Shown piece by piece: positions 36,247 to 40,790 of a stretch of DNA of 64,000 nucleotides. The stretch's first letter is position 1; every line of letters begins with the position of its first letter. The DNA comes from Candidatus Hinthialibacter antarcticus (GTDB lineage: Bacteria > Hinthialibacterota > Hinthialibacteria > Hinthialibacterales > Hinthialibacteraceae), in the NCBI GenBank assembly GCA_030765645.1, contig JAVCCE010000008.1:1-64000 (forward strand), written 5' to 3'. Position numbers and translations under genes: made by a program. A model generated the notes under the pieces. That model saw nothing but the letters and a program-made list of their open reading frames with translations. It did not search any database and was not told the origin of the DNA.

Positions 36247-38895
36247 TTATACGTGAACCTCTGCTGATGGCGACGGCTGCGGCGCCGGATTTTCAATTTG
36301 AACATTCAACTCGCCGTCGACTAAGTCAATGTGAATTTGCGCGCCGTCGAAAATTTCACCTGCGATTAATTCACGCGCCAGGCGGTTTTCGAGTTCCTTT
36401 TGAATCATACGCCGCAACGGACGCGCACCGTACACCGGGTCGTAACCGCTGAGCGCAATGTGTTCTTTCGCCGCGTTGCTGACTTCAATGCTCAGTCGGC
36501 GTTCCTGTAAGCGATGGCGCAATTCGTCCAGCATCAAGTCAACTATTTTCTCTATTTCTTCCAGGCTCAATGATTTGAACAAGACGATGTCGTCGACGCG
36601 GTTCAAAAATTCGGGGCGGCAATGGATGCGAAGTTCATCCATGACTTTTTGGCGCACATCGTTTGAAACCTCATCGCCCGCCGCCGTTGTGTCGTAAAGA
36701 TGATGTGAGCCGATATTCGATGTCATAATGATGACCGTATTCTTAAAGTCGATGGTGCGGCCTTGCGAGTCGGTCAGGCGCCCGTCGTCCAGAATCTGCA
36801 ACAGGATGTTAAACACATCGTGATGCGCTTTCTCAAATTCATCAAACAGGATGACGCAATAGGGCTTGCGGCGCACTGCTTCGGTCAATTGGCCGCCTTC
36901 TTCAAACCCGACATAGCCGGGAGGCGCTCCGATCAGGCGTGAAACGCTATGCTTCTCCATGTATTCTGACATGTCGATGCGCACGATGTTGTCTTCTGAA
37001 TCAAACAATGAAGTCGCCAGCGCTTTGGCCAATTCCGTCTTTCCGACGCCGGTCGGCCCCAGGAAAATAAACGAACCAATCGGGCGGCGCGGGTCTTTGA
37101 TGCCTGCGCGGGCGCGCAGCACGGCGTCTGCGACGGCGCTGACGGCCTCGTCTTGTCCGATGACGCGCTCATGCAGCACGTCTGAAAGATGCAGCAATTT
37201 TTCGCGTTCGCCTTCCATCAATTTTGATACGGGAATCCCCGTCCAGAGGGCGACGATCTCGGCGATTTCCTCTTCGGTGACTTCTTCGCGCAAAAATTGG
37301 TTCGCGCCTTGTTTGTTGAGCAAGGCGGCTTCTTTTTCAGCAATCTGACTCTGCAATTGCGGCAAGCGCCCGTGACGTAGCTCCGCTGCTTTTGACAGAT
37401 CGTACGCGCGTTCGGCTTGCTCGATTTCGATCTTGATCGACTCCAGTTCCTCACGAAGTTGACGTACGGATTGGATGCCTTCTTTTTCGGCTTCCCATTG
37501 GGCGCGCATACTCGACGCCCGCGCTTTCAGGTCAGCCAGTTCTTTCCGCAACGCAATCAAGCGCTCCTTGCTGGCGCTGTCTTTTTCTTTGCTGAGCGCC
37601 TGTTCTTCGATTTCGAGTTGCATGACGCGGCGGGTGACCTCGTCGAGTTCCGTCGGCATGGAGTCGATTTCCGTACGAATTTTGGCGCAGGCTTCATCCA
37701 TCAGGTCGATGGCTTTGTCCGGCAAAAAGCGGTCAGAAATATAGCGGTTCGACAACACGGCCGCCGCGACTAGCGATTTATCTTGAATCTTGACGCCGTG
37801 GTGGACTTCATACCGCTCGCGCAAACCGCGAAGGATCGAAATTGCGTCTTCAACCGTGGGCTGCTCAACCAGTACAGGTTGAAAGCGGCGTTCGAGCGCG
37901 GCGTCTTTTTCGATATGCAGGCGGTATTCGTTTAGCGTGGTGGCGCCGATGCAATGTAGTTCGCCGCGCGCCAGCATGGGTTTGAGCATGTTGCCCGCGT
38001 CCATAGAGCCTTCGGTTTTACCCGCGCCGACGATGGTGTGCAGTTCGTCAATAAAGAGAAGGATGCGCCCGTCGCTGTTTTTGATCTCGGTCAGCACCGC
38101 TTTGAGGCGTTCCTCAAACTCGCCGCGATACTTGGCGCCCGCAACCAGCGATCCCATATCGAGCGAAAAGATTTGCTTGTTTTTGAGACCTTCCGGTACG
38201 TCGCCCCGTACGATGCGATGGGCGAGGCCTTCGACGATGGCGGTCTTGCCTACGCCCGGCTCGCCAATTAAGACTGGGTTGTTCTTTGTTTTACGAGACA
38301 GAATTCGAATGACGCGGCGGATCTCGCCGTCACGCCCGATCACGGGGTCGAGTTTTCCCTTCGAGGCTTCGGAGACCAACTCGCGTCCAAAGCGTTCCAA
38401 GGCGTCGTATGTCGATTCGGGCGAAGCGCTGGTGACGCGCTGGTTGCCGCGCACCGACAGCAGGGACTTGAGAAACGCATCGCGACTAAGCCCGGCGTCT
38501 TTAAAAATTTTCACGGCGGGTGCAGCGATCTTTCCCGATAGCAGCGCAAGAACCAGGTGCTCAACGCTGATGTATTCGTCTTTCAGTTGCTTGGCCTCGG
38601 CTTCAGCCTGGACGATCAGCTGGTTCAAGCGGCTGGACGCATAACTCTGCCCATTGTCGCGGCCTGGGCCGCTGACGCGGGGACGGCGGTTGAGTTCGTC
38701 TTCGAGTTGGCTTTCGATTGCGCCCGTCGGAACCTCCATCTTGCTGAGCAGCCGTGGAACGAGCCCTTCCGGCTGACGCAGCAACGCCAACATCAAATGC
38801 TCGACGTCGATTTCGAGATGATTATTTTCGACCGCGATGTGTTGCGCGGCGGCGATGGCTTCTTGAGATTTTTGGGTGAAACGGTTCATATCCAT
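36247..38895 (-). CDS. clpB: ATP-dependent disaggregase ClpB
   Basis: This is an 882-residue Hsp100 chaperone that, with DnaK, pulls proteins out of aggregates. It has the N-terminal Clp repeat domain ([20 protein letters not shown]), a first AAA domain with GEPGVGKT, the long coiled-coil middle domain (about 410-525) typical of ClpB, and a second AAA domain with [18 protein letters not shown] 38895 is chosen because AAGGAGG lies 9 bases upstream. It is divergent from the unusual regulatory gap at 38.9-39.6 kb. I see no CIRCE-like inverted repeat. Confidence 0.95.
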
Positions 38896-39018
38896 ACGTA
38901 TTCGCCTCCTTGAGTCGGCGTTGGTTATTTTACCATGAATGCAAATGTCGTGCACAAAAGTTCCATGATTGCATTTTTTTCTATAAATCTTAATTTTCTA
39001 GGATGTTATGCCGTTGTG

Positions 39019-39254
39019 AACTAACTAGAGTCTACTTTTTTTGCAGGTGCTATTCTGTGTCATTATGGCGCAATTCGGTTGCATCATTGACTCGACTTAG
39101 TTAAACTTGATCTTGTGTTCTTTAATCAAACTACACTAAGTCAAGTTAATGATATATCCACTTTCTTTCGTCAAAATAGTTTGACTTAGGTGAATTTAAT
39201 CCGACTGGATTTAGTCTGTTTTTTCAGGCTTAATGTTATCGACTAACTATAGTC
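39019..39254. promoter_or_regulatory. Array of repeated operator-like sites
   Basis: Three 19-base sites share GACTTAG followed by a T/A-rich half ending TTRATY: 39094-39112, 39183-39201, and 39142-39124 on the other strand. Three palindromic sites have the form RACT-N6-AGTC: 39019-39032, 39203-39216 and 39241-39254. The first and last of these are near identical (ACTAAC...AGTC). The array lies between divergent clpB and a small membrane-protein frame, so it is probably a multi-site binding region for one or two regulators. Confidence 0.5.
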
Positions 39255-39306: not shown

Positions 39307-39417
39307 ATGGCGCATAATCCACGGAATTTTATAAATCTGCTTCGTCTCGTTGGCTTAACCATGCTGACTGGAGTCGTGTATGTCTTACTGAAAATTCAAG
39401 GAAAACTCCGTATGTAA
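39307..39417 (+). CDS. Predicted 36-residue small membrane protein
   Basis: A short frame, ATG 39307 to TAA 39415, has GGAGA (39294-39298) 8 bases upstream. The product starts polar (MAHNPRNFIN), then has a single hydrophobic helix (LLRLVGLTMLTGVVYVLL) and a basic tail (KIQGKLRM), which suits an inner-membrane small protein with its tail in the cytoplasm. No family is recognised. The operator-like array ends about 50 bases upstream. It could be a stress-related regulator or a toxin-like peptide; the sequence does not say. Confidence 0.45.
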   Translation: MAHNPRNFINLLRLVGLTMLTGVVYVLLKIQGKLRM

Positions 39418-39508: not shown

Positions 39509-39575
39509 AAAGTTAAAATTATGTTTAATTATATTGACAACTCGGTTCAATTATATTAATATTGTTTTTAACTTT
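39509..39575 (+). promoter_or_regulatory. Promoter flanked by an inverted repeat
   Basis: TTGACA (39534-39539) and TAATAT (39557-39562) are 17 bases apart, a near-consensus sigma-70 type promoter ahead of the DUF2089 gene. AAAGTTAAAA (39509-39518) and TTTTAACTTT (39566-39575) form a perfect inverted repeat that brackets it. This suggests an operator, possibly for self-control by the DUF2089 protein. Confidence 0.7.
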
Positions 39576-39594: not shown

Positions 39595-39912
39595 ATGAAT
39601 CTCCAAAACGAACAACCATCTTGGCTTAGGGCGCTCAATGATGAAGACCTGCAGTTTCTGAAGCGCTTCATCCTGGCGTCCGGGTCTTTGAAAGCGCTGG
39701 CGAGTGAGTACGGCATTTCTTACCCAACCGTAAGGACGCGGCTCGACCGGCTCATCGAAAAAGTGAAAGTTGCAGAACAGAGCGGGCTTGAAGACGAGTT
39801 CCATCGCCTCATTCAAATTAAGGTGGCTGAGGGTTCGCTGGGCGCATCCACGGCGAAACAACTGCTCAAAGTCCATCGCGAAAGTGTAAAATCCATGGAG
39901 GAACAGTCATGA
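39595..39912 (+). CDS. DUF2089-type helix-turn-helix regulator
   Basis: This is a 105-residue protein. WLRALNDEDLQFLKRFILASGSLKALASEYGISYPTVRTRLDRL fits the DUF2089 family; LKALASEYGISYPTVRTRL (about 41-59) is the helix-turn-helix. The C-terminal half is a charged helical region (FHRLIQIKVAEGSLGASTAK). AGGAGG precedes the ATG, and the strong promoter at 39534 drives it. It overlaps the next gene by 4 bases (ATGA), so the regulator and the membrane protein are produced together, as in regulator/sensor pairs. Confidence 0.8.
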   Translation: MNLQNEQPSWLRALNDEDLQFLKRFILASGSLKALASEYGISYPTVRTRLDRLIEKVKVAEQSGLEDEFHRLIQIKVAEGSLGASTAKQLLKVHRESVKSMEEQS

Positions 39913-40790
39913 AAACATATAAAAAATGGATTCAAGTTTTTCTAATTTTCGCAACGTGGGCTATTGCTGATTGTTTTGGTGTAGAGCCGCAACAAATTCT
40001 CCCAAAAGAAATGGGCAAATTCACCTCGGAACGCATTGTGGGGCATGATCTGTCTTACACAGATTTCATAGATGTGTTCTATAACGATCAAGGAATCTTG
40101 GTTAATAACAAATATAATAAAGGCGCCATATCTGTACCTCTATTCATATATGAAGACCCAGGTTTTGAGGCGGAAACCATCATTTACTCAGCCGAAATCA
40201 AAAGCGACAAGATTGATTTGAAGGCCTATCTCGAAATGCTCTGCACGTTTCCCGATGGAAAAACCTATTTTTCCCGGGGCGTTTCACAATCTTTAAGTGG
40301 AGCAACAACGTGGGAAATGCAACAGACGCCGTTTTTTCTGAAAGCGGGGCAACGGCCCACTCGCATAACAGTTGGGCTTCGTTTTGAAGAACCGGGTTTT
40401 GTTTATATTCGAAATATTGAGCTGAAGAAGGCGGACAACTCCCTGCGGTCTTCGCTGTATTTCTATCAATCGGTTATGCCGCGATTGCTGGGAATCATCT
40501 ATGGATGCTGGGGGGCGGCCATCGGGATCCTCGGCGGGATCATGGTTCCTAAGGGACGTTTTAAAAAACTGGTGCTAACGCTGATTGCCAGTATGGGATT
40601 GTTCAGCGTCGCCATATTTATCCTCGCGGTTCAATTGCAGATGAGTACAGGAATCTCTGTCTCAATAATCAATCAATATTACATTGCCGCTGGACTCGGA
40701 ATCGTTCTCTCGGTTGTATTTATACCAATCATGCTGAGGCGCTATCAGGAGGTCGAACTGCGAAAAATGCAAGCCAAGGATATCGGGTAA
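39909..40790 (+). CDS. Membrane protein coupled to the DUF2089 regulator
   Basis: No family is recognised. This 293-residue protein has an N-terminal signal or anchor (about 7-24) and an extracytoplasmic, beta-rich domain of about 160 residues (VPLFIYEDPGFEAETIIYSAEI, ITVGLRFEEPGFVYIRNIEL, resembling a carbohydrate-binding-type sandwich). Three membrane helices follow (about 190-215, 225-245 and 255-275), then a short basic tail. GGAGG lies before the start. By context it may sense an envelope signal and control the DUF2089 protein; that is inference. Confidence 0.65.
   Translation: MKTYKKWIQVFLIFATWAIADCFGVEPQQILPKEMGKFTSERIVGHDLSYTDFIDVFYNDQGILVNNKYNKGAISVPLFIYEDPGFEAETIIYSAEIKSDKIDLKAYLEMLCTFPDGKTYFSRGVSQSLSGATTWEMQQTPFFLKAGQRPTRITVGLRFEEPGFVYIRNIELKKADNSLRSSLYFYQSVMPRLLGIIYGCWGAAIGILGGIMVPKGRFKKLVLTLIASMGLFSVAIFILAVQLQMSTGISVSIINQYYIAAGLGIVLSVVFIPIMLRRYQEVELRKMQAKDIG

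Follow-up and report, generated by a model that had tools for sequence, protein, structure and literature searches.

Complex repressor operators of bacteria carry several dyads between divergent promoters, as in OR/OL of phage lambda and in the looping operators of the gal/deo type, and half-sites placed ten base pairs (bp) apart suit a dimeric regulator of the helix-turn-helix (HTH) kind. Inverted repeats are also found near chaperone genes under the control of HrcA, the usual chaperone repressor, which acts with the CIRCE element, and palindromes upstream of clpB characterize the HAIR/HspR system. The region upstream of clpB in Candidatus Hinthialibacter antarcticus, analysed within a 64-kb window (the whole stretch of DNA under study), resembles the lambda and gal/deo-type operators in having several short palindromes that form near-regular pairs, half-sites separated by one helical turn, and flanking divergent genes. 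It differs from them in its start-to-start spacings of 70, 40, 74 and 38 bp, which lack a common helical phase, and in its motif, which is no recognised operator and gave no match when its string was searched for in the literature. We interpret it, with a probability of about 0.45, as a lineage-specific, single-locus complex operator at which a putative dimeric regulator would control clpB and the divergent gene of a microprotein.

Architecture of the clpB–microprotein intergenic region

The start codon of clpB (ATG at 38895, minus strand) and that of the microprotein (39307, plus strand) enclose an intergenic region of 411 bp with a G+C content of 35%. Five GACT-N6-AGTC palindromes, each with at most one mismatch, are arranged within 236 bp of this region (39019–39254, as correctly located by the initial annotation), which contain nine GACT/AGTC tetramers in all (Table 1). 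The centres of the two half-sites lie 10 bp apart, corresponding to one helical turn. Four of the dyads form two close pairs (39089/39129, 40 bp apart, and 39203/39241, 38 bp apart), and the remaining one is an outlying site, whose 24-bp surroundings (39013–39036) are similar to dyad 5. The end of dyad 5 is separated from the microprotein start codon by 53 bp.

The initial annotation had divided the array into two interleaved motifs, comprising three copies of a 19-base sequence (19-mer), one of them inverted, and three RACT-N6-AGTC palindromes. The palindrome is in fact matched at five distinct places. The 19-mers at 39094 and 39183 fit their consensus with no mismatches, whereas the inverted copy (39124–39142) has three. 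The division into two motifs fails, since the GACT cores of the 19-mers are half-sites of the same dyad family, the copy at 39094 overlapping the dyad at 39089 and the inverted copy overlapping the dyad at 39129; the start of the copy at 39183–39201 overlaps the palindrome GTCAAAATAGTTTGAC at 39170–39185. The array is better read as a single dyad family, of which five members are good and a sixth is weak.

A candidate clpB promoter element was recognised as a stretch of approximately 26 bp (38933–38958) that has counterparts at a similar distance from clpB in two genomes of the same family, G004 and G001. The element is borderline, its similarity falling at the top end of the shuffled distribution; if the promoter reading holds, the array is located about 60–300 bp upstream of it. 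An element resembling GCGCCATTTTGGCTCA, spotted by eye in the same two genomes and in the window (39059–39075), was unranked among conserved stretches.

Table 1 Coordinates of features in and around the clpB–microprotein intergenic region
Feature	Coordinates	Strand	Description
clpB	36247–38895	−	882 aa; left-hand divergent gene
Candidate clpB core-promoter element	38931–38958	−	TTTGTGCACGACATTTGCAT on the clpB strand; resembles stretches in G004 and G001
Dyad 1	39019–39032	+	AACTAACTAGAGTC; one mismatch to GACT-N6-AGTC
Imperfect inverted repeat	39083–39153		29 nt, 79%, 13-nt centre; arms hold dyads 2 and 3
Dyad 2	39089–39102	+	GACTCGACTTAGTT; one mismatch; overlaps 19-mer 39094–39112
Dyad 3	39129–39142	+	AACTACACTAAGTC; one mismatch; overlaps inverted 19-mer 39124–39142
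Third 19-mer copy	39183–39201	+	GACTTAGGTGAATTTAATC; contains weak dyad GACTTAGGTGAATT, two mismatches
Dyad 4	39203–39216	+	GACTGGATTTAGTC; perfect
Dyad 5	39241–39254	+	GACTAACTATAGTC; perfect
Microprotein open reading frame	39307–39417	+	36 aa (36 codons), one hydrophobic stretch; right-hand divergent gene
DUF2089 (HTH) gene	39595–39912	+	own promoter-like site, TTGACA-17-TAATAT, at 39534–39562

Clustering, genomic distribution and conservation of the dyads

RACT-N6-AGTC gives nine strand-matches in the 64-kb window against 1.69 expected, and the maximum reached in 100 shuffles was seven. The choice of motif was corrected for by assigning a Poisson score to the count of every 4-base dyad with gaps of 0–12. 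In the region of approximately 410 bp the top-scoring dyad is GACT-N6-AGTC, with a score of 6.79 that none of 500 dinucleotide shuffles reached (best 5.18). With arms of five or six bases the excess is weaker or gone, the number of shuffles reaching it being 1 of 500 (GACTA, gap 4), 6 of 500 and 96 of 500, so that the shared core really comprises four bases. A cruder clustering statistic, calculated without expected-count weighting, was reached by 146 of 1,000 shuffles and failed to separate the array because AT-rich words dominate it; the expected-count version does separate it. When real sequence is used for comparison, 6 of 636 sliding 410-bp windows outscore the array. All six are apparent coding sequence with codon repeats, including a Gln-rich frame of 1210 aa and a frame with repeats of the DIDGDGD type, which leaves the array as the top non-coding stretch of the 64 kb. 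The clustering is real, though not overwhelming.

The motif does not extend to a regulon of the kind that the initial annotation had proposed to look for. Pattern searches over the 5.15-Mb genome returned 142 strand-matches for RACT-N6-AGTC, compared with 412 for the reversed control, so that the motif shows no enrichment, and two dyads spaced 10–40 bp apart were matched only inside the array. At the 25 dyad-site loci examined elsewhere, most dyads fall in coding frames, and the few intergenic examples (such as C39:88750 and C11:46317) are single sites ahead of unrelated genes; isolated sites of this kind look like background. The genome contains no second copy of the region, self-similarity matches being at chance level. 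The paired-dyad search also gave paired repeats of the TTGAC type (GACTATGTCAAGT... / GACTCTGTCAAGT...) at loci L105 (G005:C150:62815) and L106 (G004:C22:45516).

Conservation was likewise negative: in five genomes of the same family (G001–G005) the array was not found upstream of clpB, the small open reading frame or the DUF2089 gene, and fourteen more clpB upstream regions, taken from named genomes, contained no array. The nearest relative, G004 (ClpB at 70% over the first 200 residues), keeps the order microprotein–DUF2089–membrane protein, divergent from clpB, around a clpB/microprotein spacer of 280 bp that is without any dyad. Neither regulon nor conservation support for the dyads was thus found in this genome and the five same-family genomes. 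The initial annotation had made its claim depend on the motifs being neither at background frequency genome-wide nor unconserved in relatives; background frequency and lack of conservation were both observed, and by that rule the claim would fall, yet the local clustering still exceeds that of shuffled sequence. With regard to gene order, clpB and the microprotein gene are divergent in this genome and in G004, but in G003 and G005 (L033 and L034) clpB is immediately preceded by a DnaJ-like frame.

Candidate regulators and rival explanations

The known heat-shock elements do not account for the array. CIRCE (TTAGCACTC-N9-GAGTGCTAA) has no match with up to three mismatches in the 64-kb window, and HrcA (PF01628) is found in none of the 14 genomes of the class or phylum (G000–G013), the control genomes being positive in 7 of 14; chaperone control in this class must therefore differ from HrcA/CIRCE. 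The HAIR element (CTTGAGT-N7-ACTCAAG), whose half-site CTTGAGT loosely resembles CTTGACT, has three matches in the window with up to three mismatches, none of them within 38.9–39.3 kb. No MerR gene of the hspR type was found beside dnaJ, dnaK or clpB; the two MerR_1 genes, neither of which adjoins chaperone genes, have as neighbours frames that look, on inspection of their translations, secretin-like and TldD-like, and one that looks MEMO-like. The CtsR box (RGTCAAANANRGTCAAA) is without a match in the region at up to three mismatches.

For the operator, we infer protein binding at the dyads, cooperativity and a direction of control: a putative dimeric regulator of the HTH type would bind the five palindromes through the half-site GACT, the two close pairs and the outlying site between the divergent starts could allow binding to be cooperative, and such binding may shut or tune both the clpB and the microprotein transcripts. 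The clustering of the dyads beyond shuffles, the uniqueness of their pairing in the genome, the half-site geometry, the location of the array between two divergent starts and the putative clpB promoter element beside it support this reading, and some other form of control is to be expected where HrcA is missing from the phylum. Counting against it are the absence of a regulon, the weakening of the excess with longer arms and the lack of conservation of the dyads even in G004, which has the same divergent arrangement; no regulator gene for the array was found. The multi-site operator put forward by the initial annotation is accordingly reasonable for a divergent gene pair separated by five palindromes with two close pairs among them, although the regulon and conservation tests were negative.

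The main rival to the operator is a functionless, or nearly functionless, AT-rich spacer rich in repeats, where a short palindrome would have been multiplied by local duplication and inversion on a small scale, leaving the dyads as remnants. This is possible, if somewhat unlikely, since selection on the dyads has no support from beyond this genome. It agrees with the direct and inverted pairwise copies within the region (19–29 nt, 73–79% identity), with the non-conservation of the dyads in relatives and with the length of the spacer, 411 bp here against 280 bp in G004, which implies that it has grown or shrunk; however, the similarity is centred on the cores of the dyads, and two of the palindromes are perfect although the sequence around them has otherwise diverged. 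The palindromes could instead be the stems of a structured RNA, chiefly in the 39083–39153 hairpin, with transcription of the region yielding a leader or a small RNA. Folding is indeed far stronger than in shuffled sequence for the minus strand (z −5.4), and the plus strand gives z −3.6, but any palindrome cluster folds well, and single-stranded DNA also gives z −3.5. Given that the region has no Rfam match and no homologues for covariation, that no terminator was found, and that the array is upstream of the candidate (borderline) clpB promoter and so would fall outside that mRNA, a structured RNA is unlikely.

That the array might be an auto- or cross-regulatory operator of the DUF2089 protein, which the initial annotation had suggested as a binder, is highly doubtful. 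The protein carries an HTH and is encoded by the nearest gene for a DNA-binding protein, two genes away; a published survey recognises ZnR, HTH and SHOCT-like parts in the DUF2089 model and assigns such proteins to membrane-stress loci (PMC11237479). Its orthologues in G002, G003, G004, G012 and G013 (52–65% identity; 65% in G004, 52–53% in G002 and G003) keep the HTH nearly unchanged, and each of their genes has its own near TTGACT...TATAAT-like promoter, free of dyads; the array is not found upstream of DUF2089, microprotein or clpB in these relatives. From this sequence comparison the DUF2089 protein appears unlikely to be the array binder. Together with the gene that follows it, which encodes a membrane protein without a Pfam family, the DUF2089 gene occupies 39595–40790 (plus strand) as a pair that recurs in five further genomes of the class, has its own TTGACT/TATAAT-like promoter and is reminiscent of membrane-stress loci. 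An iteron-like role, also raised at the outset, or one as the ends of a mobile element (origin, attachment site or transposon arms) would suit repeated short sites in both orientations. It is already disfavoured and extremely improbable, however, for the region is single copy in the genome and has ordinary chromosomal neighbours. A scan of ten neighbouring proteins gave no Rep, integrase or transposase, the annotated stretch contains no replication gene, neither tandem repeats nor tandem periodicity were seen, and phages and plasmids yielded no similar sequence. In viral contigs the 19-mer has one match per contig among the matches listed, which is uninformative. Scans for Rfam families, tRNAs and tandem repeats were negative or irrelevant.

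The microprotein and the meaning of the locus

The hydrophobic stretch of the microprotein is MAHNPRNFINLLRLVGLTMLTGVVYVLLKIQGKLRM. The microprotein is present as a single copy per genome in 13 of the 14 genomes of the phylum, as judged from a profile search that includes its own training sequences and a single-sequence search that does not. It is 86% identical to its counterpart in G004, from which it is separated by 15 synonymous and 5 non-synonymous codon changes, with the differences concentrated at third positions, and is apparently under purifying selection. The neighbours of the gene vary among genomes and include clpB, an argF-like frame and a sugar-permease-like frame. No convincing family was found for it in Pfam or NCBIfam. 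This unannotated, conserved microprotein is a more solid result than the dyad array.

In an extended form of the operator reading, a new lineage-specific regulator acting at a cooperative five-dyad operator would couple clpB to a phylum-wide membrane microprotein in a phylum without detectable HrcA, and would thereby link disaggregation to a membrane signal; we consider this decidedly doubtful. If the array is functional, it would represent an uncharacterised chaperone-gene operator in a phylum that is without HrcA, none of the known heat-shock boxes having been found near clpB. An operator cluster supported by neither a regulon nor conservation would be of interest mainly to students of this lineage; a lead of wider reach is the neighbouring microprotein, found in 13 of the 14 genomes and without a match to any family model.
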